64,000 nucleotides of DNA, taken from Bordetella flabilis. GTDB lineage: Bacteria > Pseudomonadota > Gammaproteobacteria > Burkholderiales > Burkholderiaceae_B. Of this stretch, positions 18,249 through 33,250 are shown piece by piece; position 1 is the stretch's first letter; each line of letters starts with the position of its first letter. A program made the translations under genes and the position numbers. Location of the stretch: the NCBI RefSeq assembly GCF_001676725.1, contig NZ_CP016172.1:2170001-2234000 (forward strand). The letters run 5' to 3'. The notes beneath the pieces are model-generated. The model was not told the DNA's origin. It saw only the letters and a program-made list of their open reading frames with translations, and made no database searches.

Positions 18249-18296
18249 TTTTTCGCCGGTACGGCAAGACGGCCCCGTTTTTTCGCCGGCACGGCA
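18249..18296 (+). repeat. Tandem 18-bp repeats, candidate activator binding sites
   Basis: TTTTTCGCCGGTACGGCA at 18249-18266 recurs at 18279-18296 with one change (T to C), exactly 30 bases apart. Each copy contains a small palindrome GCCG-N3-CGGC. They lie about 113 and 83 bases upstream of the start predicted from the sigma-54 promoter at 18345, the usual distance for enhancer-binding-protein sites. I could not find clear copies before the other sigma-54 promoters. Confidence 0.5.
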
Positions 18297-18344
18297 GAGG
18301 TCTCGCGCTGTTCTTTCCCCGGGCAACGCCGCTTCATCGGACGC

Positions 18345-18360
18345 GGGCACGACACTTGCT
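18345..18360 (+). promoter_or_regulatory. Sigma-54 (-24/-12) promoter of the 74-residue protein gene
   Basis: GGGCAC-GACAC-TTGCT matches the consensus TGGCAC-N5-TTGC at nine of ten positions, with the invariant GG and GC exactly ten bases apart. Predicted start about 18371, 24 bases before the ATG at 18395. Confidence 0.75.
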
Positions 18361-18394
18361 GTGAGTAGAACATCCATCTGACCGGCGATACGCA

Positions 18395-18619
18395 ATGGAA
18401 GTTTTCGCAAAAGTCTTCAACGCGTGGGGCGCGACGCTGACCGTCGACCCGGACGGCAAGGGCAAGTTCAGTTGGAAGATCCTCGTCGAGGATCGGCGCC
18501 CGGGACGTCAGCGCTCCCGTTGTATCTCGTCGCCCGTCGGGTTTCCATCGGTTGGAGAAACCATCACGGATGGGCGCGCGGCCTTGGAGGTGCTTACTCC
18601 AGAGCAGGACCCCGATTAA
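18395..18619 (+). CDS. Small conserved-type hypothetical protein (74 aa)
   Basis: I do not recognise this protein. It is 74 residues, soluble, with a short N-terminal beta-like stretch (EVFAKVFNAWGATLTVDPDG) and many charged residues, ending LEVLTPEQDPD. No signal peptide or membrane segment. Support for it being real comes from outside the frame: a nine-of-ten sigma-54 promoter ends 35 bases upstream and tandem repeats suited to an activator lie further up. The ribosome site is weak. The Cys-rich protein gene follows after 95 bases and may share the transcript, which would then end at the terminator at 19042. Confidence 0.55.
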   Translation: MEVFAKVFNAWGATLTVDPDGKGKFSWKILVEDRRPGRQRSRCISSPVGFPSVGETITDGRAALEVLTPEQDPD

Positions 18620-18714
18620 TTCTATTCCCGGTGACGGGCGCAGCACGGCCCCCGGCAACGGTTCCATCGTCTTCAACAAGTATTGCTATTTCAAACCTAT
18701 CCTGGAGAACAACA

Positions 18715-19017
18715 ATGAGCGCCATGATGTGCCTTCCCTGCCAGAGCATCACCCTTGCAACCGCCGGGTTGCAGGCCCACCAGAGCCTGGTGCATGAAGG
18801 TTTCGTGCGACCCACCGAAAAGCACCGGGAAAACCACCGCGAGGACCGTTTCCGCTGCTCGTGCTGCCATACCCAGTGGATCCGCGAAACCGACCGTTGG
18901 GGCATGGACTTGGGGTTCCGGCTTGCGCCGGTGCAGTCCGGCGCACGTCCACGCTTCGCCTATTCCGAAAATACCCCCCGTGCCGGCGTTCGCGTATACC
19001 AGGTGTCCGCGGGCTGA
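18715..19017 (+). CDS. Small cysteine-containing protein (100 aa), unknown function
   Basis: Protein of 100 residues with a CLPC motif at 6-9 and a CSCC cluster at 48-51 (Cys48, 50, 51). This arrangement could bind a metal such as zinc, but spacing does not fit a standard zinc ribbon, so this is only a suggestion. The rest is basic and polar (KHRENHREDRFR). GGAGAA lies ten bases before the ATG, a good ribosome site; the longer in-frame reading upstream has none. A strong terminator follows. It may be the second gene of the sigma-54-driven unit that starts at 18371. Confidence 0.6.
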   Translation: MSAMMCLPCQSITLATAGLQAHQSLVHEGFVRPTEKHRENHREDRFRCSCCHTQWIRETDRWGMDLGFRLAPVQSGARPRFAYSENTPRAGVRVYQVSAG

Positions 19018-19041
19018 GCGCACGGTCCGGAGATATCGGAA

Positions 19042-19089
19042 AGCGGACCAGCCGCAATCTCTTATGGTTGCGGCTGGTCCGTTTTTTTA
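19042..19089 (+). terminator. Rho-independent terminator after the Cys-rich protein gene
   Basis: A 14-bp perfect stem (19044-19057 with 19068-19081, ten-base loop) followed by seven T at 19082-19088. Confidence 0.92.
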
Positions 19090-19111
19090 AAAGTCCATCG
19101 CGAGGCACATG

Positions 19112-19450
19112 CTAATGCAGTTCAGTGTCTGGCCGTGCCGGGTCGTAGCCCAGCACTTGCAGCGCAGCTTCATATGCTGCGGTGGACGCGCACAGGAACA
19201 CGGCGATGTCGCCCGGATTCACGTTGTCCAGCACGTCGCCCACCTGTTCGGGAGCGGAAGTCGGGTCATTCACCGCGGTGGCATGGATTTGACCGCCAGC
19301 CTCGACCTCGCTGCGCGGCACGATATCCGCGATGGCGTCCAGGTCAGGCGGGCTAACTACCACGTAGCTGCGTATGAACTCGCCGTCCAAGGTCGTCCGC
19401 AGGGCCATGCCGGCCTTCAGGTCGGCAAAACGAGCGCTGATAATGGTCAT
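19112..19450 (-). CDS. Hypothetical protein (112 aa)
   Basis: I do not recognise this 112-residue protein. It starts MTIISARFADLKAGMALR and has alternating hydrophobic and charged segments (YVVVSPPDLDAIADIV, GDIAVFLCAS) that suggest a small alpha/beta fold; there is no signal peptide or membrane helix. A single cysteine is near residue 88. The ATG at 19448-19450 has AAAGG eight bases upstream, and the longer in-frame reading has no such site. It is read towards the Cys-rich protein gene and away from cspA. Confidence 0.6.
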   Translation of the reverse strand: MTIISARFADLKAGMALRTTLDGEFIRSYVVVSPPDLDAIADIVPRSEVEAGGQIHATAVNDPTSAPEQVGDVLDNVNPGDIAVFLCASTAAYEAALQVLGYDPARPDTELH

Positions 19451-19662
19451 TGATGGGCCTTTCAGTTGCCGGGCTGTTGTAAAAGCGCCTCGTGCATTGT
19501 CGGAAAATATACGGTTCGTATGGTGCATGAATTCCCGTCGCGCCGGCTCGGCGCCCGGCATTCACAATCGTCATGTGCAACGTCAGGTAAGACGGCGCGC
19601 AGTTTTTGCGCTGCAATGTAGCAATTAGTTTCAACTGCGGGGGGCTGGAGAATAAATTGTTT

Positions 19663-19693
19663 TTGACTTAAGGGCAGGTCCCGTTCATAGTAT
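19663..19693 (+). promoter_or_regulatory. Candidate sigma-70 promoter and long leader of cspA
   Basis: The 377-base gap 19451-19827 holds no gene I can support. TTGACT at 19663 is followed by CATAGT (17-base spacer) or TAGTAT (19-base spacer). From there a leader of about 130 bases runs to the cspA ATG. Long leaders are usual for cold-shock genes, where RNA folding senses temperature. The distal part on the minus side should hold the promoter of the 112-residue protein gene, which I could not pinpoint. Confidence 0.45.
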
Positions 19694-19827
19694 CTGTGAG
19701 ATTTTCAAGCGGCGCGATCTTTGTACAGTTCAGAGTTCTTCCCGGTCTCCGCTATTGTTCTTGGCCCCATGCTTGAACGTCTCGTGTCCCGGGCTTTTTG
19801 CCCAGTTTAATTGCAAGGAATATCAGT

Positions 19828-20037
19828 ATGGCTCAGGAAACCGGCGTCGTTAAGTGGTTCAACTCTGAAAAAGGCTATGGCTTTATCACCCCGGAAGCGG
19901 GTGGCAAAGATCTGTTCGCGCACTTCTCCGAGATTCAAGGTAGCGGCTTCAAGTCGCTCGAAGAAAACCAGCGCGTGAGCTTCACGACCGCGAATGGCCC
20001 CAAGGGCCCGCAGGCCACGAAGATCCAAGTGCTCTAA
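19828..20037 (+). CDS. cspA: Cold-shock protein, CspA family
   Basis: Single cold-shock domain protein of 69 residues. Both RNA-binding motifs are present: RNP1-like KGYGFITP at about 16-23 and RNP2-like DLFAHFS at about 30-36, after the usual GVVKWFN start. It binds single-stranded nucleic acid and acts as an RNA chaperone or antiterminator. The start ATG 19828 gives the standard length; ten more in-frame codons upstream have no family match. It has its own long leader and a terminator 20 bases past the stop, so it is a single-gene unit. Whether it is cold-induced or constitutive is not shown by sequence. Confidence 0.96.
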
Positions 20038-20052
20038 GTTGAATACTTGAGC

Positions 20053-20080
20053 AAAGAGCCCCGCTTCGGCGGGGCTTTTT
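20053..20080 (+). terminator. Rho-independent terminator of cspA
   Basis: Eight-bp stem AGCCCCGC / GCGGGGCT with a TTCG tetraloop and a T run at 20076-20080. Confidence 0.9.
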
Positions 20081-20257
20081 GTTGTCTGCCGCCCATACCA
20101 GCCATAGTACTTCGCCGGGATTCCCCGGTTCGGCAAATGTGGACCACCCAGTGGCGCCCGCCCGGCAACCTGTCGCAGGACAGCCGGTGACCTGTGCGTC
20201 CATACGCACCGCGGCTGCGGCACGTCGACACGCTTTCACGTAAACCGGCGTGGCTGC

Positions 20258-20291
20258 AAAAATAAAGCGGCCCGCGTTGCCGCGGGCCGCT
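20258..20291 (-). terminator. Rho-independent terminator downstream of tRNA-Met
   Basis: An 11-bp perfect GC-rich stem (20266-20276 with 20281-20291, loop four bases) followed on the minus strand by TTTATTTTT. It lies ten bases past the tRNA 3' end. Confidence 0.85.
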
Positions 20292-20300
20292 GAAACATCC

Positions 20301-20377
20301 TGGTGGCGCATCCCTGATTCGAACAGGGGACCTGCGGATTATGATTCCGTCGCTCTAACCGGCTGAGCTAATGCGCC
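20301..20377 (-). tRNA. tRNA-Met (anticodon CAT)
   Basis: A full cloverleaf of 77 bases including the encoded CCA: acceptor GGCGCAT/ATGCGCC, D-arm GCTC-GAGC, T-arm CCCTG-TTCGAAT-CAGGG. The anticodon loop ATCATAA carries CAT. The acceptor is fully paired at its first base, so it is not initiator tRNA. I take it as elongator Met; a tRNA-Ile2 whose C34 becomes lysidine cannot be excluded from the anticodon alone. Confidence 0.88.
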
Positions 20378-20557
20378 AAATCCCATGAGCCGACGTCGGT
20401 GCGTTGGCAGAGCTTTGCAAGCGTCTACCGCCACGCGGCCCCTGGAAAGAGCGAGATTCTAGCACGCGATTTTGCCGCTTGCCAAATGTGCCCGGCAGGG
20501 TCGCATCCTCACTGTGGAGGCGGCACTGCTATCGCGCCACGTGGCCGAAACGCGTGT

Positions 20558-21862
20558 TCAGGCATCGCGCGCCAGCCTGAAACCCGAGAATTGCCACCGC
20601 GCGTCGGGTGGAAAGAAATTGCGATAGGTCGGCCTGATGTGGGTGCGAGGCGTCGCGCAGGAGCCACCCCTCAGCACGTACTGGTTGCACATGAACTTGC
20701 CGTTGTACTCGCCCACTGCGCCGGGGGCGGCGGCGAATCCGGGGTACGGTTCATATGGACTGCACGTCCATTCCCAGACGTCGCCATACAGTTGCAGCGC
20801 CGATACACCGTCGTCATGTGTCGCTGCCCGCGGATGCAGCAATCCGGACTCGACCATGTTGGCGTGCGTGTCCGGGCCCGCGTAGCGCCGCGCCACTTGC
20901 TCCCATTCCGCTTCCCTGGGCAACCGGGCGCCAGCCCAGCGCGCGTAGGCGTCCGCCTCGAAATAGCTGATGTGCACCACAGGCGCCTCGAGGTCCAGCG
21001 GCTCCATGCCGTGCAAAGTAAAGGCATGCCAGGTATCGTCCTGTTGCTCCCAGTAGAGCGGCGCATGCCAACCGTGCGTGTTGATCGCATCCCAGCCCAG
21101 GGATAGCCAGAACTCAGGTCGACGGTAGCCGTCGTCCTCGATAAAGGCGAGATACTCGCGCTGCGTGACTGGTCTGCGTGCAAGCTCATACGGCCGCAGC
21201 AAGACCTCGTGGGCCGGCATTTCGTTATCGAAGCAGAAACTGGCCTCGGCATGGCCCGTTCGTACGATGCCGCCCGGATGGTGCAGCCAGCCATTGGTGG
21301 TCGCCGGCCTGATCGCGCGCGGACGCGCGCCCTGCGCATAGGCGGGGCGCAGCGGATTGCACGCCAGCAGATGCTTCACGTCGGTCAGGATCAGTTCCTG
21401 ATGCTGCTGCTCATGATGCAGTCCCAGTACCACCAGGGCCTCGAACTCGGTATTCCCGCGCATGCGCGCCGTCAGCTCAACCATGGCGGTGTCTACATGA
21501 TCCCGGTACGCGACGATGTCGCGATACGGCGGGCGCGTCAGCAAGCCGCGCTGCGGGCGGGGATGCCGTTGGCCGATGGCGTTGTAGTACGAATTGAAGA
21601 GATAGCCGTACTGTGGATGAAAGGGCACATAGTCGGCCGCGTAACGTTGCAGCAGAAAGGTTTCGAAGAACCAGGTGGTATGAGCCAAGTGCCATTTGAC
21701 CGGGCTGGCATCGGGCATGGACTGGGCCTGGCAGTCTTCCGGCGACAGGGGCTCTGCAAGGGCCAGACTGGCGTGGCGCACGGCGGTATAGTCGGTCGCG
21801 CCGGGGCAAGCGGAAGTGTCGAGGGCGCTCGCACGCGATGTAGCGGGATGAATCGTATCCAT
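20558..21862 (-). CDS. egtB: Ergothioneine biosynthesis sulfoxide synthase EgtB
   Basis: Non-heme iron enzyme of 434 residues that joins trimethyl-histidine (hercynine) to a thiol and oxidises it, the central step to ergothioneine. The N-terminal DinB-like domain shows the expected iron ligands: His61 in WHLAH and His150/His154 in HHEQQH. The C-terminal formylglycine-generating-enzyme-like domain (from about 195) has ISYFEADAYARWAGARLP and YNGKFMCNQYVLRGGS and ends RPTYRNFFPP...GFRLARD. The ATG at 21860-21862 was chosen as the first giving family length. It follows egtD by 38 bases. No egtA or egtC is present, as in other two-gene systems, so the thiol donor is not known. Confidence 0.93.
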   Translation of the reverse strand: MDTIHPATSRASALDTSACPGATDYTAVRHASLALAEPLSPEDCQAQSMPDASPVKWHLAHTTWFFETFLLQRYAADYVPFHPQYGYLFNSYYNAIGQRHPRPQRGLLTRPPYRDIVAYRDHVDTAMVELTARMRGNTEFEALVVLGLHHEQQHQELILTDVKHLLACNPLRPAYAQGARPRAIRPATTNGWLHHPGGIVRTGHAEASFCFDNEMPAHEVLLRPYELARRPVTQREYLAFIEDDGYRRPEFWLSLGWDAINTHGWHAPLYWEQQDDTWHAFTLHGMEPLDLEAPVVHISYFEADAYARWAGARLPREAEWEQVARRYAGPDTHANMVESGLLHPRAATHDDGVSALQLYGDVWEWTCSPYEPYPGFAAAPGAVGEYNGKFMCNQYVLRGGSCATPRTHIRPTYRNFFPPDARWQFSGFRLARDA

Positions 21863-21900
21863 GAAGAAGCTTCTCCTGGGGCAGGGGCGGGCTGTGGTGC

Positions 21901-22920
21901 CTAAGCCCTGGCACAAAAGACGGCAAACCATTCACGCGCATCGGTCCAATATCGAACCTGACCGAAGCCTGCACGTGCCAGCATGGCCTTGAACGCCTGC
22001 GGCCGGTACTTGTAGGAGTCCTCGGTGTGGATGCGCTCGCCTGCGGCAAATCTTCGCTGACCGCCCGGCCAGGTAAGCGTCACATCGGTGCGCGCGCGCA
22101 GGTGCATTTCGATGCGGGACCGCGCCTCATTGAAGTAGGCGACATGCTGCCATTGGGACAGATCGAAATCGGTACGAACGATGCGGTTCACATGCCGCAG
22201 CAGGTTCAGATTGAAAGCCGCCGTTACTCCCACGGCGTCGTCATACGCCGGCTCAAGGATATCGCGTGGCTTTACCAGATCCACCCCTATGATGATGGCA
22301 CCACCCTCGGACTGCCTGCGAATGCGATGGAGCAGCGCCGCCGCATCATCCGGCGCCAGGTTGCCAATGCTGGAACCGGGATAAAAGAAAACACGCTGGT
22401 CCGTGTGTATGTCGGCGGGCAAGGCGAGATCATGGAAGAAATCCATGCCGACGCCGACGATGTCGAGTTCCGGATAACGTCCCGCGATACGTTTGACGGC
22501 GCTGCGCAGGTACTCGATGGAGATGTCTACGGGTGCGTACTGCGGGGGATTCAAATAAGGCAGCAGGCGTTCCGCCTTGGCACAGTCCCCCGCGCCCAGA
22601 TCGACCAGCACCTGCGCAACACCGGCGTGAGCCGCGATTTCCGCGGCATGGCGGCTAAAGATCTCGTTTTCGCAACGGGTGGGGTAATACTCGTCGAGCA
22701 AGGTGATGGCTGTGAACAGGCTCGAGCCGAGTTCGTCGTAAAGGAACTTGGGGCTGATGTGGGCCTGGGGCAGGGCCAGACCTTGAAGCAGTTCATTCGT
22801 GACCGTATCGCCCGCTTCCGTGTGCAGCTGATGGAAGCGTGGCTCGCGCGATGGCGCGGGGCACGCCGACGACGGCGAAACGTTATCGGCGAGCGAGGGC
22901 GAGTAGGAGGGAGATCGCAT
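21901..22920 (-). CDS. egtD: L-histidine N-alpha-methyltransferase EgtD
   Basis: Makes hercynine from histidine and three S-adenosylmethionine molecules, the first step of ergothioneine synthesis. The protein is 339 residues. The SAM-binding motif VLVDLGAGDCAKAERLL and the block YAPVDISIEYLRSAVKRI are visible, as are FFYPGSSIGNL and SGGAIIIGVDLVKPRDILEPAYDD-like segments of the EgtD family. The ATG at 22918-22920 fits a predicted sigma-54 start at about 22957; an in-frame start 40 codons upstream would lie above that promoter. egtB follows, so egtD-egtB form one operon. Confidence 0.93.
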   Translation of the reverse strand: MRSPSYSPSLADNVSPSSACPAPSREPRFHQLHTEAGDTVTNELLQGLALPQAHISPKFLYDELGSSLFTAITLLDEYYPTRCENEIFSRHAAEIAAHAGVAQVLVDLGAGDCAKAERLLPYLNPPQYAPVDISIEYLRSAVKRIAGRYPELDIVGVGMDFFHDLALPADIHTDQRVFFYPGSSIGNLAPDDAAALLHRIRRQSEGGAIIIGVDLVKPRDILEPAYDDAVGVTAAFNLNLLRHVNRIVRTDFDLSQWQHVAYFNEARSRIEMHLRARTDVTLTWPGGQRRFAAGERIHTEDSYKYRPQAFKAMLARAGFGQVRYWTDAREWFAVFCARA

Positions 22921-22967
22921 GCAGAGTTGGTCCTTGTAGGCCGGGAACGCGGCCGAGCAGGGGTGGA

Positions 22968-22983
22968 AGCAAACCCCGTTCCC
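22968..22983 (-). promoter_or_regulatory. Candidate sigma-54 promoter of egtD-egtB
   Basis: On the minus strand GGGAAC-GGGGT-TTGCT matches TGGCAC-N5-TTGC at eight of ten positions, with GG and GC ten bases apart and a perfect -12 box. Predicted start about 22957, 37 bases before the egtD ATG. The -24 box is weaker than in the neighbours. Confidence 0.5.
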
Positions 22984-23142
22984 GGTGCATGATGGGACGG
23001 AGTAAGCAGTTCGTCTCGCCTGAAATAGGGCTTTACCCATCGTTTCGAAAGAATAGGGCCTTGGCCACAGTCAAGCTCGACAATGGGTCATACGGTACGC
23101 CGTCCCCTTTGTCACCCGCAAGGGCTTTTTCGAGGAGAGACC

Positions 23143-23481
23143 ATGAATAGCAATTCGCATAGCGCCGAGCTTCTGGCCAGCAAGGACCGGGTAGCAAGCA
23201 GCTTACGTGAACTGATGGCAGGTACCGAGGAACTCCTGCGTTCCACGGCCTCGTACACGGGTGAAGAAATCGACATCGCACGCAAGCGGCTGAAGAGCCA
23301 ACTGGAGTCCGCACGCAATATGGCAGGCGAATGGGAAGGCACCGCTGCCGAACGCTATCGGCGCGTGTCCGCCGTCACGGACGAATATGTCCATGAGAAT
23401 GCCTGGAAGTCCATCGGCTTGGCGGCTCTGGTGGGGCTATTGCTGGGGGCCTGCCTGGCCTCCGGCAGCGATCGCCGCTAG
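23143..23481 (+). CDS. DUF883/YqjD-ElaB family membrane-anchored protein
   Basis: A 112-residue protein with the DUF883 layout: an amphipathic helical N-terminal part (about 10-85, rich in Glu, Arg and Ala) and a single C-terminal membrane helix (about 89-107) in the family context YVHENAWKSIGLAALVG. E. coli relatives YqjD and ElaB sit in the inner membrane, bind ribosomes in stationary phase and are stress-induced. The ATG at 23143 follows GAGGAGAGA. It starts a row of closely spaced genes (23527, 24089) that look co-transcribed. A weak -24/-12-like sequence upstream (six of ten matches) was not accepted as a promoter. Confidence 0.85.
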   Translation: MNSNSHSAELLASKDRVASSLRELMAGTEELLRSTASYTGEEIDIARKRLKSQLESARNMAGEWEGTAAERYRRVSAVTDEYVHENAWKSIGLAALVGLLLGACLASGSDRR

Positions 23482-23526
23482 CGGTCTCCAGGATCCTGGA
23501 CGCGCATCTGCGAGCGGTATGTCGCC

Positions 23527-24078
23527 ATGTCGTTGATTATCATCGCGCGTTTTGATAGCTTGCCGGCCGCGGCAAGCGCTGCGCATGCGCTCGTGACGGA
23601 CGGTTTCCACGAGGACGCTGTCAGCGTCTTCCGTGCGGGGGACAACCGCATGTCGGGGCGGCGTGGGGAGCGCTGGCCGGGGCGTCTGGTGTACGCGGCG
23701 ATGGCCAGGACCGCGGCCCTGGCCGCGGCAGGGGCGGCGGTTGGCGCCACGGTATCGGCGTTGATGGGGATTCCCGACGCCTACGGCGTCGGGATCACTG
23801 CGGTTGGTGCGCTGGTGGGTTCTCTCGCCAGCACGTTGCTTGTGCTGTTCGAGCGCCATGCGGCGCGAGGTGACGGCAGCGTGCCGCCTCAGGCCGCGTT
23901 CGTGGCAGTCATTGCAGAACCGGGCGAGGAAGTGCAAGGCGCGCAGTTGCTGCGCGACGCGGGCGGGCAAGGCATTGAACGAGTGCGCGGTCGTCATCTG
24001 TCGCGAGTGCCTGCGCAAGACGAAACGCGTACCGACAGGGGCGGCCTGCGGACCGGGCTGTCCGATTCCATGATGTAA
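23527..24078 (+). CDS. Hypothetical membrane protein (183 aa), stress-protein-like
   Basis: Protein of 183 residues whose first 35 residues (SLIIIARFDSLPAAASAAHAL) form a small alpha/beta unit, followed by two Ala/Gly-rich membrane helices at about 61-81 and 87-107. The C-terminal part begins with AFVAVIAEPGEE and contains a second beta-like strand. This half-and-half arrangement, a ferredoxin-like fold split by membrane helices, resembles general-stress proteins of the DUF1269/YflT kind, but I am not certain. It lies 45 bases after the DUF883 gene and ten bases before the hydrophilin-like gene, so the three are likely one operon. Confidence 0.7.
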   Translation: MSLIIIARFDSLPAAASAAHALVTDGFHEDAVSVFRAGDNRMSGRRGERWPGRLVYAAMARTAALAAAGAAVGATVSALMGIPDAYGVGITAVGALVGSLASTLLVLFERHAARGDGSVPPQAAFVAVIAEPGEEVQGAQLLRDAGGQGIERVRGRHLSRVPAQDETRTDRGGLRTGLSDSMM

Positions 24079-24088
24079 GGAGATGACC

Positions 24089-24409
24089 ATGAAAGCCGCA
24101 CGTACCGATGAACGTGACAAGACCGCTGGCAGCGACACGCACCCCGCCGGCGAACAGGCGGAAACGCACAGGGAAGGGCCGCCGCGCGTATCCCACGAAC
24201 TGGACAAACAGGAGGAATGGGACACCGCCGCGAAGGACCGTGGCTTCCAGAAGGGAGACCAAGGCGGCTACAAGGGCGACTACGACCACGGCAAGTATGA
24301 GGATCGCGACTTCGGCTTTCCCAAGAAGGAGGATGCCGAGCGTAATCAAGGGTCGCGCCAGGCAACCCCGTCGCTGGCCGAGGGCGAGCGCAAGAACAAG
24401 AACGGATAA
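24089..24409 (+). CDS. Hydrophilin-like, intrinsically disordered small protein (106 aa)
   Basis: Protein of 106 residues with almost no hydrophobic residues. It is dominated by Lys, Glu, Asp, Gly and Gln, and has a Gly/Tyr-rich repeat block QGGYKGDYDHGKYEDRD near residues 62-80. There is no cysteine and no signal peptide. Such proteins (hydrophilins, GsiB- or LEA-like) protect against drying and salt stress; that role is inferred from composition only. The second of two nearby ATG codons (24089) was chosen because AAGGAG lies six bases before it but directly touches the first. The gene follows the 183-residue membrane protein by ten bases. Confidence 0.7.
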   Translation: MKAARTDERDKTAGSDTHPAGEQAETHREGPPRVSHELDKQEEWDTAAKDRGFQKGDQGGYKGDYDHGKYEDRDFGFPKKEDAERNQGSRQATPSLAEGERKNKNG

Positions 24410-24479
24410 GGCGCGCACGATGTCCCGAGCGGTTCGCTTCGTGTAAGGGCCGCGGCTTTCGTCATCGCGTCCAGTATGC

Positions 24480-24495
24480 GGCACTTGCCGAGCGC
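24480..24495 (+). promoter_or_regulatory. Possible sigma-54 promoter of the phospholipase D-family gene
   Basis: CGGCAC-TTGCC-GAGC has a good -24 box but only two of four -12 bases (seven of ten overall), with GG and GC correctly ten apart. Predicted start near 24517. Weak; listed because it is placed and oriented like the stronger sites nearby. Confidence 0.25.
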
Positions 24496-24539
24496 CACGA
24501 GCGGCGCTTCGGCCGTGTCGGTTCGTCCAGGGAGTCATC

Positions 24540-25991: not shown

Positions 25992-26072
25992 GGCCGCACG
26001 CGCTACGGTGGCGTTGACGCGGTGCTTGGCACCGGACCGCCGCCTCGGCAGGCATGGGATAGGGCTCAGACG

Positions 26073-26107: not shown

Positions 26108-26130
26108 ACGCCTGCAAGTCTCAGGAATGG

Positions 26131-26499
26131 CTACTTGCCGAAGCGCGTCTTGGCGTCCGCCATGCAGGCGTCCTTCGCATTGCCCGACATCGCGTCGCAC
26201 TTTTCCTTGGCGACGTCGTACTCGGATTTGCGTTTCTCCTTGGTGGCTTCATGCCGGGCTTCCGCCTTTTCCTTCGCCTGCTTGGTGTCGGCCTTGGCGC
26301 TGTCTCGCGTTGCCTTCGCCTGCTTTTCGCAGACGTCCTTATCGTTGCCCTTCAATGCGTCGCACTTCTTCTGGTCGGCCCGATACTGCGCATCGATTTC
26401 CTTGTTGGTCATGGGCGCTTGCGTCTGGGCATGTGCTGTGAAAGCCAGTGCCGGGATGCTGACGAACACGGCGCTGAGGGCGAGTTTGATGGGGCTCAT
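26131..26499 (-). CDS. Periplasmic Lys/Ala-rich protein with two Cys-x10-Cys repeats (122 aa)
   Basis: Secreted protein of 122 residues: signal peptide 1-24 ending AHA, then two related segments, KKCDALKGNDKDVCEKQAKA (Cys46 and Cys57) and EKCDAMSGNAKDACMADAK (Cys101 and Cys112). Each has a Cys-x10-Cys pair, probably one disulfide each, 55 residues apart. They are joined by a highly charged helix of Ala, Lys and Glu. I know this type only as an uncharacterised family in Burkholderiales. A nine-of-ten sigma-54 promoter lies 54 bases upstream of the ATG. Internal duplication and disulfide-capped helices suggest an envelope structural or binding protein, but function is unknown. Confidence 0.8.
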   Translation of the reverse strand: MSPIKLALSAVFVSIPALAFTAHAQTQAPMTNKEIDAQYRADQKKCDALKGNDKDVCEKQAKATRDSAKADTKQAKEKAEARHEATKEKRKSEYDVAKEKCDAMSGNAKDACMADAKTRFGK

Positions 26500-26562
26500 G
26501 GGCGGTACTCCTTCTACGTTAGATTGACCGGTTGGCCTTACCCTTGTTGGGTACTGTGGAGC

Positions 26563-26579
26563 TCGCAAGCGTTGTGCCC
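26563..26579 (-). promoter_or_regulatory. Sigma-54 promoter of the Cys-x10-Cys periplasmic protein gene
   Basis: On the minus strand GGGCAC-AACGC-TTGC matches nine of ten consensus bases with exact spacing. The 15 bases GGCACAACGCTTGCG are identical to those of the promoter at 33234-33250. Predicted start near 26553. Confidence 0.75.
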
Positions 26580-26660
26580 ATGCGTAGAGCGCAATCCAGG
26601 GGCCAGGCCACGCGATGCGGGCGTACCCATAAACCGCGGATTGGATCGGAGCAATAGGAT

Positions 26661-26676
26661 GGGCATGCAGTTTGCT
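26661..26676 (+). promoter_or_regulatory. Candidate sigma-54 promoter of the Pro/Thr-rich secreted protein gene
   Basis: GGGCAT-GCAGT-TTGCT matches eight of ten bases, with a perfect -12 box and GG/GC ten apart. Predicted start near 26687, 29 bases before the ATG at 26716. It is divergent from the promoter at 26563. Confidence 0.6.
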
Positions 26677-26715
26677 GTACACGGTGTCCATACTTGTCAC
26701 CCAAGGGAGAACACT

Positions 26716-27048: not shown

Positions 27049-27085
27049 GGCCTCGCCACGCCTGTACCCAGGCGATGTGATGTGA

Positions 27086-27120
27086 ACGACAAGGGGGCGC
27101 ATCGAGCGCCCCCTTGTCGT
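27086..27120. terminator. Strong hairpin between convergent genes, probable terminator
   Basis: A 15-bp perfect stem (27086-27100 with 27106-27120) separates the secreted protein gene from rpoN. The T run is short on both sides, so efficiency is uncertain. Confidence 0.6.
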
Positions 27121-27138
27121 TTCCGCTACGAGTGACCG

Positions 27139-28623
27139 TCAGTACTGGCGACGCATTTCCGCAGGCGGGTACTTCAGTTGGCCGCGGTATTTGGAGACCG
27201 TTCTACGTGCCACCATGACCCCTTGCTGGCCCAGCAGATGCGCAAGGTCGACGTCCGACAAAGGTGTGGACGCGTCTTCACCGTCGATCATTTCCTTGAT
27301 CAGCGCACGCACCGCGGCGGCCGAGCAGCTTCCGCCTGTATCCGTGTAGAGCTCGCGCGAGAAGAAATGCTTGAATTCGAAAATGCCGCGTGGCGTGGCC
27401 ATGTATTTGTTGCTGGTCGCGCGCGACACGGTGGATTCATGGATCTCCAGCTCGTCGGCGATCTCGCGGAGCATCAAGGGGCGCAGGGCGATTTCGCCGT
27501 ATTCGAAGAAGGTCTGCTGCCGTAGTACGATCGCCTCCGCGACGCGCTGTATGGTGCTGTAGCGCTGCTCCACGTTACGGATCAGCCAACGCGCCTCCTG
27601 CAGCTCCTGAGCCATCGGAGACCGATCGCTGTAGCGCGCATTGCGGAACAGGTCGGCATACGCGCGATGCAACCTTGCGCGCGGCATGGCTGCCCGGTTC
27701 GGTGTGACGATCCATTGGCCATTGAACTTCTGTACGACGACGTCCGGCACGACATAGCTGGAGTCCGGTTTTGCATAGCGCAGGCCGGGCCGGGGATCGA
27801 GCCGCCGAATCAGTGCGCAAGCCTGGCGCAACTCGTCGTCGCTACACTGGCATACGCGCGTGAGTCCGGAGAAATCGTGCTTGCCCAGTCGTTCCAGTTG
27901 CTGCTCGACGATGTGCATCGCCAGCGTGCGTCCCGGCGTGTCTTCCTCCATTGCGGTCAACTGCAGGCGCAGGCACTCCGCCAGGTTGCGGGCGCCCAGT
28001 CCCGGCACATCCAGCTGCTGCACCAGCTTGAGCGCGACCTCCCATTCTCCCGGTTCCGGTGCGGGGTCGAATACGCCCTCACCGGCGAGATCGGTCAAAT
28101 CGGTGCGCAGGTAGCCTTCCTCGTCCAGGCCTTCGATGATGTATTCGGCCATCAGGCGATCCCTGGGCGCCAGCCGATAACTGCATAGTTCGGTGCGCAA
28201 GCGGTCGCGCAAGTCCTCCATGCTGCGTGCCCATTGCCCGACGTCACTGTCCCCATCGCCGGTCGCCCGCGCGGCGGGGTAATCGCCGGAGTATTCCGAC
28301 TGCATGTCGGGCAACTCGGGCAGTTCGGTAATTACCTCCGCAGGTGCCTCGGTAAGGGCTGGTGCTTGCATATCGCCAGCCGCCGATATGGTGTCGTTCA
28401 GCACCGTTGTCGCGGGACCCGCCGCCATGGCCGCGTCGTCGGCCGCCGTGGCGACGCCTTCTTCATCCCCTTCCTCCAGAAATGGATTCGTTGCCAGTGC
28501 CTGCTCGATCTCGCGGGTGAATTCCAGCGCGGACATCTGGAGCAGTTTTACCGACTGTTGGAGCCGCGGCGTCAGGCTGGTTTGCTGGCGCGCCCTGAGT
28601 TCGTACGTGGCTTGATGTGTCAA
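27139..28623 (-). CDS. rpoN: RNA polymerase sigma-54 factor RpoN
   Basis: Sigma-54 of 494 residues. Region I at the N-terminus is Gln/Leu-rich (RARQQTSLTPRLQQSVKLLQ), a middle acidic linker follows, then the core-binding part, the helix-turn-helix (ADELEIHESTVSRATSNKY) and the RpoN box ARRTVSKYR at 472-480 that reads the -24 element. I chose a TTG start at 28621-28623: GGAG lies seven bases upstream and the encoded start matches the family, while the longer reading begins upstream of a perfect sigma-54 promoter. It is not in the lptB-rpoN-hpf-ptsN cluster usual in proteobacteria; it sits among stress genes and two sigma-54 activators. Confidence 0.96.
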   Translation of the reverse strand: MTHQATYELRARQQTSLTPRLQQSVKLLQMSALEFTREIEQALATNPFLEEGDEEGVATAADDAAMAAGPATTVLNDTISAAGDMQAPALTEAPAEVITELPELPDMQSEYSGDYPAARATGDGDSDVGQWARSMEDLRDRLRTELCSYRLAPRDRLMAEYIIEGLDEEGYLRTDLTDLAGEGVFDPAPEPGEWEVALKLVQQLDVPGLGARNLAECLRLQLTAMEEDTPGRTLAMHIVEQQLERLGKHDFSGLTRVCQCSDDELRQACALIRRLDPRPGLRYAKPDSSYVVPDVVVQKFNGQWIVTPNRAAMPRARLHRAYADLFRNARYSDRSPMAQELQEARWLIRNVEQRYSTIQRVAEAIVLRQQTFFEYGEIALRPLMLREIADELEIHESTVSRATSNKYMATPRGIFEFKHFFSRELYTDTGGSCSAAAVRALIKEMIDGEDASTPLSDVDLAHLLGQQGVMVARRTVSKYRGQLKYPPAEMRRQY

Positions 28624-28679
28624 TTGCTGTCTCCGTAAAAAGCCGGAACGGAAACTCCCATCCCATCCAATGAAGACGT

Positions 28680-28696
28680 AAGCAAAGGGTGTGCCA
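28680..28696 (-). promoter_or_regulatory. Perfect sigma-54 promoter of rpoN (autoregulation)
   Basis: On the minus strand TGGCAC-ACCCT-TTGCTT matches the consensus at every position, GG and GC ten bases apart. Predicted start near 28670, 47 bases before the TTG start codon of rpoN. RpoN should therefore drive its own gene. Confidence 0.85.
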
Positions 28697-28761
28697 GTTT
28701 TTTTGTGCGGCGCGCTTGATTGCAACGCAAGCTCCAAACCCGCGTATTCATTGGTTTTCCG

Positions 28762-28777
28762 GGGCACGCCTCATGCT
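28762..28777 (+). promoter_or_regulatory. Candidate sigma-54 promoter of the PRC-barrel gene
   Basis: GGGCAC-GCCTC-ATGCT matches eight of ten bases with GG and GC ten apart. Predicted start near 28788, about 120 bases before the ATG at 28908. It is divergent from the rpoN promoter in the same gap. Confidence 0.55.
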
Positions 28778-28907
28778 GTCCCTTGCCGCTGGGGTTGTGC
28801 GCCGTCGGCCGCATGACCCTGTCGGTCTGGCGGAATTACGCATTCATGTAATTACTTCCCGCAGCCGGCCGATCCGTTTTTGTCCGGCTACCGCAGGAGA
28901 CATTGTC

Positions 28908-29360
28908 ATGGATCATGGCCGCGATACCGCGCCGCCGACGGGCGTCGCCGCGGCGGGCTCGCCCGCCGAAACCCGCATCGTTGGATCGGCAAAAAAAACC
29001 GGCTCGGGCCCGGGGCCGGAAATCATGGCCGCCGCCACCCTGGAGGGCAACGACGTGTTGAACCTCGCGGGCGAGAAGCTGGGTACGCTGCAAGACATCA
29101 TGGTGGACGTGCCCAGCGGGCGTGTGGCCTACGCAGTCCTGGCACGGGGAGGCGTCATGGGTATAGGCGACAAGCTGTTCGCCATCCCCTGGAGCGCCTT
29201 GACGCTGGATACGGACCGCAAGTGCTTCCTGCTGGATATCGATTTGGAGCGGTTGCGGAATGCCGCCGGTTTCGACAAGGAAAACTGGCCCCGCATGGCC
29301 GATCCCGCGTGGGCGGCGGACATCCACGAGTATTACGGACAGCCGCCGTACTGGTCATGA
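28908..29360 (+). CDS. PRC-barrel domain protein (150 aa)
   Basis: Soluble protein of 150 residues. Residues about 45-120 form a PRC-barrel: EGNDVLNLAGEKLGTLQDIM, then VAYAVLARGGVMGIGDKLFAIPWSAL with the usual alternating strands. PRC-barrel proteins of this small type are common among stress-induced genes in Burkholderiales; a binding or scaffolding role is assumed. The first 40 residues are a Pro/Ala/Gly tail without signal peptide. AGGAGA lies eight bases before the ATG. It is divergent from rpoN, with a sigma-54-type promoter facing it. Confidence 0.85.
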   Translation: MDHGRDTAPPTGVAAAGSPAETRIVGSAKKTGSGPGPEIMAAATLEGNDVLNLAGEKLGTLQDIMVDVPSGRVAYAVLARGGVMGIGDKLFAIPWSALTLDTDRKCFLLDIDLERLRNAAGFDKENWPRMADPAWAADIHEYYGQPPYWS

Positions 29361-29397
29361 GGGCGGGGTAGGGCGTGCCGCGCCCTGCGCGGTCGCC

Positions 29398-30411
29398 TTA
29401 TCCCGAATGCGAGGCCGTCGAGGCGTCGTAAGTGCCCAGACGGTTGTAGAGGGTCTTCAGGCTGATGCCCAAGGTGCGCGCAGTGCGCCGTTTGTCGCCC
29501 TGGTGATGGGCCAGCGTCGCGAGGATCAGTTCGCGCTGCGCCTGCAGCAAAGAAGTTCCCACGCACATCTTCAAGGTGCCTTGAGCAACCTGTGTTTTCG
29601 GCGTCCGCCGCGATAGCGCCGGGCCGGCAATCTCCACGACATTGTCGGCCAGGATAAAAGCGCGATGTATGGTGTTCTTGAGCTCACGGACGTTGCCGGG
29701 CCAGTCGTAAGCCGTCAGAGTCTCCATGGCTCGCTTCGAGAAGACCTTTTTGGTCGATTCCGCCGCATTGAAGCTGTCCAGGAAACGCTGGGCCAGATAC
29801 GGTACGTCTTCCAACCGCTCCCGCAATGGCGGCACACGCAGGGGCACGACGGCCAATCTGTACAGCAAGTCTTCGCGGAACCGGCCTTCGGTGACGGCGG
29901 TGTAGGGGTCGCGATTGGTGGCGGCCACGATACGGACGTTGACCCGCACCGGCTGCAGGCCGCCCACGCGGTGGAATGTCCCGGTTTCCAGCACCCGCAG
30001 CAGCTGTACCTGCATGTCCAGCGGCATTTCCGTGACTTCATCAAGGAACAGCGTGCCGCCGCTGGCGTGTTCGAAATAGCCGATATTCTGGGCGATCGCG
30101 CCCGTGAAACTGCCTTTTTCGTGCCCGAACAATTCCGCTTCGATCAAGCTGGCGGGAATGGCGCCGCAATTCACCGGGACGAAGGGCTGGTCGGCGCGCG
30201 CACTACGGGCGTGGACGGAACGTGCGACCAGTTCCTTGCCTGTGCCGCTCTCGCCTACGATCAGCACACTGGCTTCCGTTCCCGCCACTTTGTCGATCTG
30301 CTCGGCCAGCTTCTGCATGGCTTCGCACTTTCCCATCGCGGACGGGTCGGGCAGGTTGTTGTAGTCGGCGCGCGCTCCAGGCGCGCGCACGGACGCGGAA
30401 GCGTTGGGCAT
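29398..30411 (-). CDS. Sigma-54-dependent activator without receiver domain (337 aa)
   Basis: Enhancer-binding protein made of an AAA+ domain and a DNA-binding domain only. Walker A GESGTGKE is at 53-60, the sigma-54 contact loop GSFTGA (a variant of GAFTGA) at 100-105, Walker B GTLFLDE at 119-125, and a Fis-type helix-turn-helix with [12 protein letters not shown] at about 314-325. The first 25 residues are a disordered tail, so nothing visible switches it on; control by level or partner protein is likely, as with PspF. The ATG at 30409-30411 follows AGAGGA with six-base spacing; a start 16 codons earlier has no such site. Divergent from the two-domain activator at 30742. Confidence 0.92.
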
Positions 30412-30741
30412 TCGGGTTCCTCTTGATGATGCCAAACTGCCGGGACGCGGCATGGTCATGATTTGGCGCTATGTTTGTTGATCGTACTCAGCGAGCATAC
30501 CCGCCATTGCAAGCACTTGAAAGTGGATGAAATCGTTAGCCAACTGTACGAATTGATTACGTTTATAGGCGGTACGCCGGGATAAGCTTCGCTCCCACAA
30601 ATCGCCTGCCTTATGCATACGCATCCGTCTTTATTGCGATGCGTCGTCTGGTCAGCAGCGGATAGAATGGAGGCGGCGGGGACGCCGGCCGGGGCGCCGC
30701 GTCTTCGAAAGCCCGAAACTCGAATTCTACGGAAACTGCGC
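30412..30741. other. Intergenic region between the divergent sigma-54 activators
   Basis: 330 bases without a gene I can support. The middle (30500-30580) is distinctly AT-richer than the surroundings and holds CAAGCACTTG, a 10-base palindrome, near 30507. I see no -24/-12 sequence on either strand, so both activators are probably read from ordinary promoters here, possibly with shared control. Confidence 0.4.
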
Positions 30742-32133
30742 ATGCCACATGTTTTGATCGTCGATGACGAATCTCCCGTGCGAACGGCGCTGGCCGAGAT
30801 CGTCAAGGACGAAGGATTCACTGTTGCTCAAGCGAGCGACCTGCGCGAAGCAAAAATACAGATCCTGCGCCAGTCGCCCGACCTGGTCTTGTCCGACCTG
30901 CAATTGCCCGACGGCAACGGCCTCGATATTTTCCAGGCGCTCAGCTCGCCCAATGTGGACGTCGTTTTCATTACCGGCCACGCCAGCGTGGAAAGCGCCG
31001 TGGATGCTCTGCGGTTGGGCGCCATCGATTATCTGCTCAAACCCGTTAATATCCAACGGCTGAAAATGGTGTTGGGCCGCATGCCGCGCAACGCCGATCT
31101 TTCGCCCTGGGGCGGGCCGTTCGAGGACGAGGACCGTTTCGGCAAGATGCTGGGACGATCGGCGCCGATGAAGCAGCTGTATCGGCAGATCGCCAAGGTG
31201 GCGCCCACCGAAGCGACTGTCTTCCTGATGGGCGACAGCGGGACAGGGAAGGAACTCGCCGCACAAGCCATCCATGAGCTCAGCGCGCGGCGCAAGGGGC
31301 CTTTCCTGCCGGTGAACTGCGGAGCGATTTCGCCCAACCTCATCGAAAGCGAAATGTTCGGGCACGAGCGTGGCAGTTTCACGGGTGCCGACCGCCAGCA
31401 TAAGGGCTATTTCGAGCGCGCGGCCGGCGGTACCCTTTTCCTGGACGAGATCACGGAAATGCCGATCGATCTGCAGGTCAAGCTCCTGCGCGTGCTCGAG
31501 ACCGGCCTGTTCATGCGGGTGGGCACCAACCGGGAGATTGCCAGCGATGTCCGCGTCGTGGCGGCGACCAACCGCAGCCCCGAAGAAGCGGTGGCCGAGG
31601 GCAAGCTTCGAGAGGATCTGTACCACCGTTTGAATGTGTTCCCTCTGGAGCTGCCGCCCCTTCGCGAACGCGGCGACGACGTGATTCTGATCGCCCAGCG
31701 TTACCTGGATATGCTGAACCAGGAACGTGGCGCCCAGAAAAAATTTGCCGCGGATACCCTTGAAAGCCTGCGCGCCCACACTTGGCCCGGCAATGTGCGC
31801 GAACTCAAGAACTATGTGCACCGGGCCTTCATCCTCGCCGACGACAACGAGATCCGCGCGGGTATTGTGCCTTTGCAGATGTCGCCCGAAAAAGCTGCCA
31901 CCGGGACGCAGATTACGGTTCCGGTTGGTGTTCCGCTGGCCGATGCCGATCGCCGTTTGATCTTCGCGACGCTGGAGCAGTGCGGCGGCGTCAAGAAGCA
32001 CGCAGCCGAGATCCTGGGAATCAGCCTCAAGACGCTGTACAACCGGCTGGAAGAGTATGCGGCCGCCGGCCATTATCCCAAGGTGAACGGCGAGGCTGCC
32101 GCCAAGGCAGAAGCCTCCGGCCGGGCCAAGTAA
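30742..32133 (+). CDS. NtrC-family response regulator, sigma-54 activator (463 aa)
   Basis: Receiver domain 1-115 with acidic pocket Asp8/Asp9, phosphorylation site Asp52 in VLSDLQLPDG, Thr78 and Lys100; AAA+ domain about 135-370 with Walker A GDSGTGKE (163-170), GSFTGA (210-215) and [10 protein letters not shown]-terminal Fis-type helix-turn-helix with [12 protein letters not shown]. That recognition helix is identical over 12 residues to the one in the neighbouring receiver-less activator, so both should read the same sites. No histidine kinase gene is adjacent: it is an orphan regulator. The ATG at 30742 opens the receiver domain; the longer frame upstream has no homologous part. The PfpI gene with a sigma-54 promoter follows. 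Confidence 0.94.
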   Translation: MPHVLIVDDESPVRTALAEIVKDEGFTVAQASDLREAKIQILRQSPDLVLSDLQLPDGNGLDIFQALSSPNVDVVFITGHASVESAVDALRLGAIDYLLKPVNIQRLKMVLGRMPRNADLSPWGGPFEDEDRFGKMLGRSAPMKQLYRQIAKVAPTEATVFLMGDSGTGKELAAQAIHELSARRKGPFLPVNCGAISPNLIESEMFGHERGSFTGADRQHKGYFERAAGGTLFLDEITEMPIDLQVKLLRVLETGLFMRVGTNREIASDVRVVAATNRSPEEAVAEGKLREDLYHRLNVFPLELPPLRERGDDVILIAQRYLDMLNQERGAQKKFAADTLESLRAHTWPGNVRELKNYVHRAFILADDNEIRAGIVPLQMSPEKAATGTQITVPVGVPLADADRRLIFATLEQCGGVKKHAAEILGISLKTLYNRLEEYAAAGHYPKVNGEAAAKAEASGRAK

Positions 32134-32186
32134 GCTGCGCCGCCGTCGCCCGGCGGCAGCCGCCCTTCAGGGGCGGGACGGCCAAG

Positions 32187-32202
32187 TGGCATTGCGCTTG
32201 CT
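32187..32202 (+). promoter_or_regulatory. Sigma-54 promoter of the PfpI/DJ-1 gene
   Basis: TGGCAT-TGCGC-TTGCT matches nine of ten bases with GG and GC ten apart, followed by a pyrimidine tract. Predicted start near 32213, 55 bases before the ATG at 32268. Confidence 0.75.
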
Positions 32203-32267
32203 CTTTTCCGAGAGCGATTGCCGGTTCCCCGGCGACTGGACCAACGCGCAATTCACGAGGTGCAAAT

Positions 32268-32828
32268 ATGGCTGATGCCTTGAAAGACGTTACCGTGGCG
32301 ATTCTCGCCGTCGATGGTTTTGAACAAGCCGAGTTGCTGGAGCCCCGCAGGGCGCTGCAGCAGGCGGGGGCGAGAGTAGTCGTCATTTCCGCCAAGCAGG
32401 AGCCGATCCAAGGCTTCAAGCATACGGACAAGGGCGACAAGGTGGACGTGGACCTGACGTTCGCGGAGGCGGACCCTCAGCATTTTGCCGCCGTCCTGCT
32501 GCCTGGCGGCGTGGTCAATGCCGATGAGATCCGGCAGCATCCCAAGGCTCAGGATTTCGTCCGCCGCATGACGGAAGCACGCAAACCGTTGGCGGTCATT
32601 TGCCATGGTGCCTGGCTGCTCGTGTCGGCCGGGCTGGTGCGCGGCCGGACGATGACGAGCTGGCCGTCGTTGCAGGACGACCTGCGCAACGCCGGCGCTC
32701 AGTGGGTGGACCGGGAAGTGGTAGTCGACCAGAACTGGGTAAGCAGCCGCAAACCGGATGACATTCCGGCTTTCAATCGGGAATTCCTGGCCTTGCTTTC
32801 GAAGGCCGCCCACCGCCAGGCGGCATGA
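32268..32828 (+). CDS. PfpI/DJ-1 family protein
   Basis: Class I glutamine-amidotransferase-like fold of 186 residues. The nucleophile elbow AVICHGAW carries the catalytic cysteine (about residue 112), preceded by LLPGGVVNADEIRQHPKAQDFVR and followed by TSWPSLQDDLRNAGAQWVDREVVVD, all typical of PfpI/YhbO/YraA proteins. Relatives act as chaperone or deglycase-type protein repair enzymes and are induced by stress; the exact activity is debated. The ATG at 32268 begins ALKDVTVAIL. It has its own sigma-54 promoter 55 bases upstream of the start codon, and follows the NtrC-type activator. Confidence 0.92.
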   Translation: MADALKDVTVAILAVDGFEQAELLEPRRALQQAGARVVVISAKQEPIQGFKHTDKGDKVDVDLTFAEADPQHFAAVLLPGGVVNADEIRQHPKAQDFVRRMTEARKPLAVICHGAWLLVSAGLVRGRTMTSWPSLQDDLRNAGAQWVDREVVVDQNWVSSRKPDDIPAFNREFLALLSKAAHRQAA

Positions 32829-32888
32829 ACGAGGACGGGCCGCCAGGCCCGTCCGTTCCTTCTCATCGCGATTGGCTGACCTGTCTGC

Positions 32889-33170
32889 TCAGCCGCCGTT
32901 GCGGGTAGGATCCGGCGGGGTGTGCGCCAGGCCGGCGCTTCCTTCATCCACGATGTTGTCGGGGGCAATATCGTCGGCCATCGGGCCGTCCGGCTCGCCT
33001 TCCACGTCCGCCCTCTCACCCGTCCCGGCCGCGTCGGTGTCTGTGTCGGGCGCCCCCGGACCTACATCGCTGGCCGAGTCGGATGAGTCGCTTGGTCCCA
33101 ATGCGCGGTTGCCGTGCCCCGGCGGAGACACGTCCGCCAAGTCCGCGTCGGGGTCATATCGTGTTGCCAT
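32889..33170 (-). CDS. Small acidic disordered protein (93 aa)
   Basis: Protein of 93 residues dominated by Asp, Pro, Ser, Gly and Ala (DADLADVSPPGHGNRAL, then repeated DSSDS and DTDTD-type stretches), with no hydrophobic core, signal or cysteine. It is probably disordered. I do not know its function. The ATG at 33168-33170 follows AAGGAGG, a perfect ribosome site, and a nine-of-ten sigma-54 promoter lies 54 bases further upstream, so the frame is well supported as a gene. Confidence 0.75.
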   Translation of the reverse strand: MATRYDPDADLADVSPPGHGNRALGPSDSSDSASDVGPGAPDTDTDAAGTGERADVEGEPDGPMADDIAPDNIVDEGSAGLAHTPPDPTRNGG

Positions 33171-33233
33171 GTGAGCCTCCTTGGTCAATGTGCCGGGATG
33201 CCGGCGCAGTGCCGTCCCAGCCTTGCCCACACC

Positions 33234-33250
33234 CCGCAAGCGTTGTGCCG
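33234..33250 (-). promoter_or_regulatory. Sigma-54 promoter of the small acidic protein gene
   Basis: On the minus strand CGGCAC-AACGC-TTGC matches nine of ten bases. Its core GGCACAACGCTTGCG is identical to the promoter at 26563-26579. Predicted start near 33224. Confidence 0.75.

Follow-up and report, generated by a model that had tools for sequence, protein, structure and literature searches.

We wanted to know why, in Bordetella flabilis, a gene for sigma-54 (rpoN) stands together with two sigma-54 activator genes and a set of small stress-type genes, several of them preceded by -24/-12 promoter sequences of the sigma-54 type. The locus lies in a 64,000-nucleotide stretch of contig NZ_CP016172.1 (positions 2,170,001 to 2,234,000), referred to here as the window, which the initial annotation had read as holding a compact sigma-54 stress regulon around its own sigma factor. 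Pfam domains and gene calls bear out the grouping of rpoN, activators and stress-type genes, and conservation, synteny and genome-wide co-occurrence agree with a stress-type set under sigma-54 promoters, the targets of which mostly carry G, A or C at position -26. The best-studied general stress responses are run by factors of the sigma-70 type. The explanation that we consider probable is a sigma-54 stress circuit, in which a cascade would run from the housekeeping sigma-54 (RpoN1) to a second paralogue (RpoN2) and on to stress genes, with a promoter code at -26 and activators bearing a GSFTGA motif.

The window rpoN gene and its relatives

The features that carry the argument are given below. 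Matches refer to the ten specified positions of TGGCAC-N5-TTGC; scores come from a sigma-54 matrix that approximates the published consensus; counts of orthologue upstream regions use a score of at least 11 and include the window.

27139..28623, minus strand: rpoN2, second sigma-54 paralogue; Sigma54 AID, CBD and DBD domains; start set by a codon-usage script; groups apart from RpoN1
28681..28696, minus strand: rpoN2 -24/-12 site TGGCACACCCTTTGCT, T at -26; 10/10 positions; at least 11 in 80/81 upstreams
29398..30411, minus strand: EBP1, sigma-54 activator without a receiver domain, GSFTGA; Pfam Sigma54_activat, HTH_8
30742..32133, plus strand: EBP2, response-regulator sigma-54 activator, GSFTGA; Pfam Response_reg, Sigma54_activat, HTH_8
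32187..32202, plus strand: PfpI -24/-12 site TGGCATTGCGCTTGCT, T at -26; 9/10; conserved block; 39/41 upstreams
32268..32828, plus strand: DJ-1/PfpI family gene; PF01965
33235..33250, minus strand: -24/-12 site of the acidic protein gene CGGCACAACGCTTGCG; 9/10; 11/15 upstreams
32889..33170, minus strand: acidic protein gene; no Pfam match; family has a site at 38 loci
18345..18360, plus strand: p74 -24/-12 site GGGCACGACACTTGCT; 9/10; present in locus L001 too
18395..18619, plus strand: p74, 74-residue protein gene; open reading frame; no Pfam match
26564..26579, minus strand: CCperi -24/-12 site GGGCACAACGCTTGCG; 9/10; second site at 26590-26605, 9/10; family has a site at 23 loci
26131..26499, minus strand: CCperi, Cys-x10-Cys periplasmic-type gene; gene call; no Pfam match
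26661..26676, plus strand: PTsec -24/-12 site GGGCATGCAGTTTGCT; score 12.7; conserved in loci L002 and L003
26716..27048, plus strand: PTsec, Pro/Thr-rich secreted-type gene; open reading frame; 15 upstreams compared
28762..28777, plus strand: candidate -24/-12 site of the PRC-barrel gene GGGCACGCCTCATGCT; score 11.5; family has a site at 12 loci
28908..29360, plus strand: PRC-barrel gene; PF05239

All 20 relatives tested carry two rpoN genes (PF04552), and in a tree the copies split into two groups of 47 and 15 rows with a support of 100 in the SH-like approximate likelihood ratio test (the midpoint root serves for drawing only). RpoN2 carries PF00309, PF04963 and PF04552 above cut-off, corresponding to region I (AID) and the core-binding and DNA-binding domains, and matches solved sigma-54 chains, e.g. 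8f1i. Nine positions hold non-overlapping residues in RpoN1 and RpoN2, two of them in region I (Q68 to R/K, and L or M at 96 to F). The RpoN box, which is reported to bind the -24 element (PMC7057263), ends in E in 15/15 RpoN1 rows and in G, H, A, T or I in 81/81 RpoN2 rows, the window included, where it reads ARRTVSKYRG against the canonical ARRTVAKYRE. We conclude that the window gene is a diverged second paralogue, RpoN2, and not the general sigma-54 gene; the idea of a sigma-54 set around its own sigma factor stands, with this correction to the identity of the factor.

The nearest rpoN match to the window gene is from Achromobacter aloeverae (79% in the best segment). Among the 40 matches listed of 232 in a plasmid collection, the best identity was 48.6% (Burkholderia multivorans) and Ralstonia RpoN2 did not appear. 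The longest rpoN2 open reading frame extends to 28767 (542 residues as listed) and begins upstream of its own -24/-12 site, so that the true start should be near 28623. At many loci in Achromobacter, Bordetella, Pusillimonas, Verticiella and Caballeronia, rpoN2 is accompanied by at least one of the two activators and by part of this set of small genes; the Paraburkholderia stretches contain the PfpI, PRC or 183-residue gene and no close activator.

Conservation of the -24/-12 sites

We counted sites with GG and GC in register, on the correct strand and at most 150 nucleotides from a start codon. Six sites matching at least nine of the ten positions stand before 5 of 17 genes (0.10 expected, Poisson p ~8e-8; one wrong-strand site). 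They lie before p74, CCperi (two sites), rpoN, PfpI and the acidic protein gene, the five genes before which the initial annotation had placed sites at this level, and the computed 0.10 agrees with its estimate of well under one chance match. Over the whole window, strings matching at least nine positions are near chance (10 found vs 5.6 expected) and those with at most two mismatches are exactly at chance (88 vs 89.8 expected from shuffling); place and conservation, not number, therefore carry the evidence.

The -24/-12 bases are kept in relatives. Orthologue upstreams reached a score of 11 for rpoN (80/81), PfpI (39/41), the acidic protein gene (11/15), PTsec (8/15), PRC (10/18) and p74 (2/2), the last of which was missed by the codon-usage script that called genes in the fetched loci. 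None did so for ebp1 (0/26), ebp2 (0/62), purB (0/2), g149 (0/3), csp (0/4), egtB (0/3), GltB (0/3), Sulft (0/1) or arsB (0/3), and few for duf883 (1/23), g183 (1/11) and cls (1/7); g108 gave 3/6. For divergent genes the wrong strand also scored at least 11, in 43/81 rpoN, 13/18 PRC, 5/15 PTsec, 5/15 acidic and 5/41 PfpI upstreams. In the otherwise diverged intergenic regions before PfpI and PTsec, the -24/-12 site is the clearest conserved block. CCperi (23 loci) and egtD (5 loci) were judged via site-bearing gene families instead of orthologue upstreams. As for the weaker sites proposed initially, that of PTsec stands up well, that of PRC moderately (12 loci) and that of egtD only weakly.

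The equality of the two-mismatch count with its shuffled expectation is what would be seen if the sites were chance matches, an explanation that we regard as practically excluded: the gene-proximal excess (five genes against 0.10 expected), the orthologue conservation set against control genes and the conserved intergenic block all speak against it.

The base at -26

Of 525 sites at 80 rpoN2 loci, 404 were intergenic and faced a called gene; the remainder, 51 of them intragenic and 70 lacking a called gene, was set aside. T occupies -26 in 55/63 rpoN2 sites vs 20/341 sites of other genes (Fisher p 5e-42; Fisher and rank tests in this work, save the independent-pair test below, are uncorrected for relatedness). 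At the other-gene sites T is rarer and G commoner than in the DNA nearby, and with one vote per family, rpoN2 excluded, the majority base is G in 23, C in 11, A in 10 and T in 3. The families bearing sites at these loci include a BON lipoprotein (39 loci), topoisomerase IB (20), trehalose-6-phosphate synthase (OtsA; 20), SDR (16), CsbD (8) and Ku (6). Further, the profile at -26 varies with the last residue of the RpoN box: with G it is 113 G, 29 A, 9 C and 5 T, and with H it is 50 G, 29 A, 73 C and 13 T, a difference that is confounded with phylogeny and could be co-variation or shared descent. We infer that the non-T form is a promoter variant distinct from canonical TGGCAC and that RpoN2 recognises it.

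Target genes across genomes

Site contexts were taken for nearly all G-, A- and C-type sites of A. aloeverae and Achromobacter dolens and for most T sites of A. aloeverae (3/27 T sites of A. aloeverae and 2/20 A/C sites of A. dolens were left out), and in part for Achromobacter sp. Root83. In the A. aloeverae and A. dolens contexts, sites that lie between genes and point at one make up 16/18 of the G, 6/9 of the A, 12/25 of the C and 21/25 of the T type; the C-type sites are mixed with chance matches, because 12/25 are intragenic. A Pfam scan covered 31/33 non-T targets and all 19 T targets. Non-T targets comprise KatE, Mn-catalase, Ku, two glycogen synthases, DUF892, hemerythrin, DUF883 and entericidin; an iron permease, CinA, a GAF-HisKA protein and endonuclease-type and nucleotidyl-transferase-type proteins; and transketolase, cytochrome c7, molybdopterin oxidoreductase, pyridine nucleotide-disulphide oxidoreductase and phosphatidylserine decarboxylase; nine of the 31 scanned have no family. 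T targets include glutamine synthetase (glnA), P-II (glnK), two amidases, periplasmic binding and transport proteins, formate/nitrite transport, aldehyde dehydrogenase and others, with an iron permease as the exception. Judged by gene families, the non-T set would be of a stress nature, and it resembles the RpoS regulon in classes such as katE, otsA, glycogen and BON/OsmY-type genes.

The two classes also differ upstream and between genomes. An NtrC-type dyad (GCAC-N7-GTGC) is present in 22/64 T upstreams vs 2/61 non-T upstreams (p 6e-6), and in just 2/81 upstreams of rpoN2. When each of 125 sites in the three Achromobacter genomes was assigned its best partner in another genome, directed counts were 40 from T to T, 11 from non-T to non-T and 5 in each of the two mixed directions (p 3e-5).

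In five genomes, 15/69 G-type sites lie within 10 kb of rpoN2, where 0.2 are expected. The clustering near rpoN that a scan of relatives was proposed to reveal is thus present; contrary to what had been claimed, the regulon is not compact, since the other 54 sites lie elsewhere, beyond 10 kb. A. dolens has a further cluster of non-T sites at a distance from rpoN2 (L159; contig C64, 16464-25610), where the sites precede glycogen synthase, iron permease and endonuclease-type genes.

Dependence on RpoN2 and the place of RpoS

The 151 genomes from the family to which A. aloeverae belongs divide into 63 with RpoN2, 68 with an RpoN1-type match alone and 20 with none or a very weak one (RpoN2 was called at a 55% identity threshold read from the match table, with at most 10 candidates scored per genome). 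Site excess was measured as a pattern vs the same pattern read backwards. GGGCAY-N5-TTGCT gave forward/backward counts of 785/162 in RpoN2, 322/161 in RpoN1-only and 56/21 in no-RpoN genomes, and TGGCAY-N5-TTGCW gave 1295/277, 1312/265 and 167/50, respectively. RpoN2 genomes differ from RpoN1-only genomes in the G excess (p 1e-14; p 2e-9 in 3-5 Mb genomes alone) but not in the T excess (p 0.54). Eight independent pairs on an RpoD tree gave 6.9 agreements on average and none opposite (median p 0.016, range 0.008-0.06; supported branches, 80/131 genomes, with a median split of our choice).

None of the 151 genomes, with or without RpoN2, yielded an RpoS that reached the TIGR02394 cut-off; as a control, 6/6 Burkholderia-type RpoN2 genomes reached it, and in such genomes RpoN2 and RpoS coexist. 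RpoN2, a sigma-54 unlike the sigma-70 family factor RpoS, could therefore stand in the place of RpoS in 63 of the 151.

The activators

EBP1 carries GSFTGA at 57/59 loci with two activators (not found at the other two), and EBP2 likewise at 57/59 (GAFTGA at two), the 59 being a slight overcount because both queries match the same gene at least at L030 and L047. Twelve other activator loci of two genomes gave GAFTGA in 11 cases and nothing in one. EBP2 is present in 61/63 RpoN2 genomes vs 1/88 others, plus a partial match in one more. GSFTGA is not diagnostic, as it also occurs in Desulfovibrio vulgaris (PMC4641369). We propose EBP1 and EBP2, on co-occurrence and motif, as candidate cognate activators of RpoN2. 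A hybrid GAF-PAS histidine kinase with a receiver adjoins rpoN2 in 22/80 loci (L021:12058-15060, L006:12238-15261 and 20 more) and is absent from the window; it is a possible sensor for EBP2.

The proposed circuit and its alternatives

In the circuit that we favor, housekeeping RpoN1 probably switches on rpoN2 through a canonical T-type promoter. RpoN2 polymerase would then transcribe a dispersed stress regulon with oxidative, osmotic, DNA-protection and storage functions, from -24/-12 sites that avoid T at -26 and favor G (A or C too), served by the response regulator EBP2 and the receiver-less EBP1. What the sequences themselves contain is the paralogue, the conserved sites, the split at -26, the target families and the co-occurrence; from these we infer that RpoN2 reads the non-T sites, that its changed RpoN box and region I cause the selectivity and that an inducing signal sets the system in motion. 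The need of rpoN2 expression for rpoN1 (Ralstonia) and of katE for rpoN2 (B. pseudomallei) has been shown by others in relatives. On a more tentative footing, with slightly less than even confidence, we suggest that Alcaligenaceae devoid of RpoS have RpoN2 as their general stress sigma factor, separated from the nitrogen circuit by the base at -26 (through the changed RpoN box) and by the GSFTGA/region I interface, and turned on by the housekeeping sigma-54.

Several observations weigh against this reading. Eight of the 63 rpoN2 sites have A or G at -26; the window PfpI site has T, a base found in none of the 38 PfpI-family sites elsewhere, which carry G, A or C; the iron permease site is T in one genome and G in another; and label transfer between genomes was mixed in 10/61. 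Transketolase, cytochrome c7 and molybdopterin oxidoreductase, all non-T targets, are not stress genes. No enhancer emerged for non-T sites: in 61 upstreams no dyad was counted more often than in shuffles, and expectation-maximisation on 61 and 84 upstreams returned GC-rich or inconsistent words or another -24/-12 site, with scores somewhat above two shuffles each, the same procedure recovering the NtrC-type dyad in the T class. The G-type excess is also 2.0-fold in RpoN1-only and 2.7-fold in no-RpoN genomes; as genomes without RpoN exceed the backward control too, that control is imperfect. Ralstonia solanacearum RSp1674, near rpoN2, is reported to have a T-type site (PMC4371752), and a third Ralstonia GSFTGA activator, Rsc3129, is tied to rpoN1-dependent growth on ethanol (PMC4676750). 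Finally, RpoN2 of Ralstonia (PMC4676750) and of Burkholderia pseudomallei (PMC4745423) is reported to complement an Escherichia coli rpoN mutant, which implies that RpoN2 can use T-type promoters.

This last point, together with the GSFTGA activators and the changes in region I, would fit an arrangement in which RpoN2 runs the stress set and selectivity comes from activators, enhancers and expression timing, the difference at -26 being a by-product; Cereibacter sphaeroides, for its part, is described as using promoter base and activator both (PMC11999139). We think this unlikely, given that the sites have less T and more G at -26 than the DNA around them, that the split between rpoN2 and target sites holds across genera and that the box reported to bind -24 (PMC7057263) is changed in every RpoN2 row. 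It is very improbable, in our view, that the non-T sites are weak ordinary RpoN1 promoters and RpoN2 is redundant or antagonistic: the G-type excess tracks RpoN2 although RpoN1 is present in both groups, NtrC-type dyads are almost missing from non-T sites (2/61), and a B. pseudomallei rpoN2 mutant is reported to lose katE expression (PMC4745423). The account of Ralstonia rpoN2 as having no phenotype, with an antagonistic role proposed (PMC4676750), is in its favor.

Comparison with known systems

Several partial parallels to the circuit favored here have been described. In R. solanacearum, TGGCACAGCCTTTGCA precedes rpoN2 (RSp1671), the gene is no longer expressed when rpoN1 is mutated, and the role of rpoN2 "remains enigmatic" (PMC4371752). 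As in the window, there is a second sigma-54 with a T-type site before its gene and there are GSFTGA activators, Rsp1667 and Rsp1668, there with adjacent locus numbers (PMC4371752, PMC4676750); unlike here, no regulon or function is assigned to RpoN2 there. B. pseudomallei likewise has RpoN2 as a second sigma-54, without which katE is not expressed at 48-72 h of growth (PMC4745423), but there a single target is described, with no promoter variant or regulon. Both likenesses are of description and not of compared sequences. C. sphaeroides RpoN1-RpoN4 are specialised paralogues sorted by promoter base and cognate activators, the base at -11 and the activators separating RpoN1 from RpoN2 (PMC11999139); there the paralogues serve nitrogen fixation, flagella and XrpA, whereas here the base is at -26 and the paralogue would serve stress. 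Campylobacter jejuni is said to have no RpoS and to depend on RpoN for stress resistance; the passage speaks of RpoN and mentions neither a second sigma-54 nor a promoter variant (PMC12322963). The same source notes little rise of RpoS in stationary-phase Burkholderia thailandensis and suggests RpoS-independent networks.

Among the matches listed in searches of open-licence literature, no paper linked RpoN2 with a stress regulon or with the -26 base, and none was on point for Achromobacter rpoN and stress, for rpoN2 in particular genera or for a sigma-54 general stress response. The view that a stress set with its own sigma factor was undescribed holds in part, as a second Burkholderiales rpoN and the control of katE by rpoN2 had been published (PMC4371752, PMC4745423). 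If RpoN2 is the general stress sigma factor, a general stress response would be run by an activator-dependent sigma factor of its own. In a family in which RpoS was undetected in 151 genomes, a sigma-54 seems to do this job. The circuit would give a function to the second rpoN of many Burkholderiales, called enigmatic in Ralstonia (PMC4371752), and would fit the control of katE in B. pseudomallei (PMC4745423). It would also offer a natural sigma-54 pair for testing promoter sorting by one base at -26, and scans that start from TGGCAC, as was done for Ralstonia with one mismatch allowed, would rank a large part of the regulon low.

Neighbouring genes

The remaining genes of interest in the window are the ergothioneine-type pair, before which the only site is a weak candidate, and a group of four genes for which no good -24/-12 site was found in the window.

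22968..22983, minus strand: weak candidate site of egtD GGGAACGGGGTTTGCT; score 9.8; egtD family has a site at 5 loci
20558..22920, minus strand: egtB and egtD (ergothioneine-type); PF03781, PF12867, PF10017
23143..25991, plus strand: DUF883, 183-residue, 108-residue and cardiolipin-synthase-like (PLDc) genes; Pfam; occur together with rpoN2 at several loci

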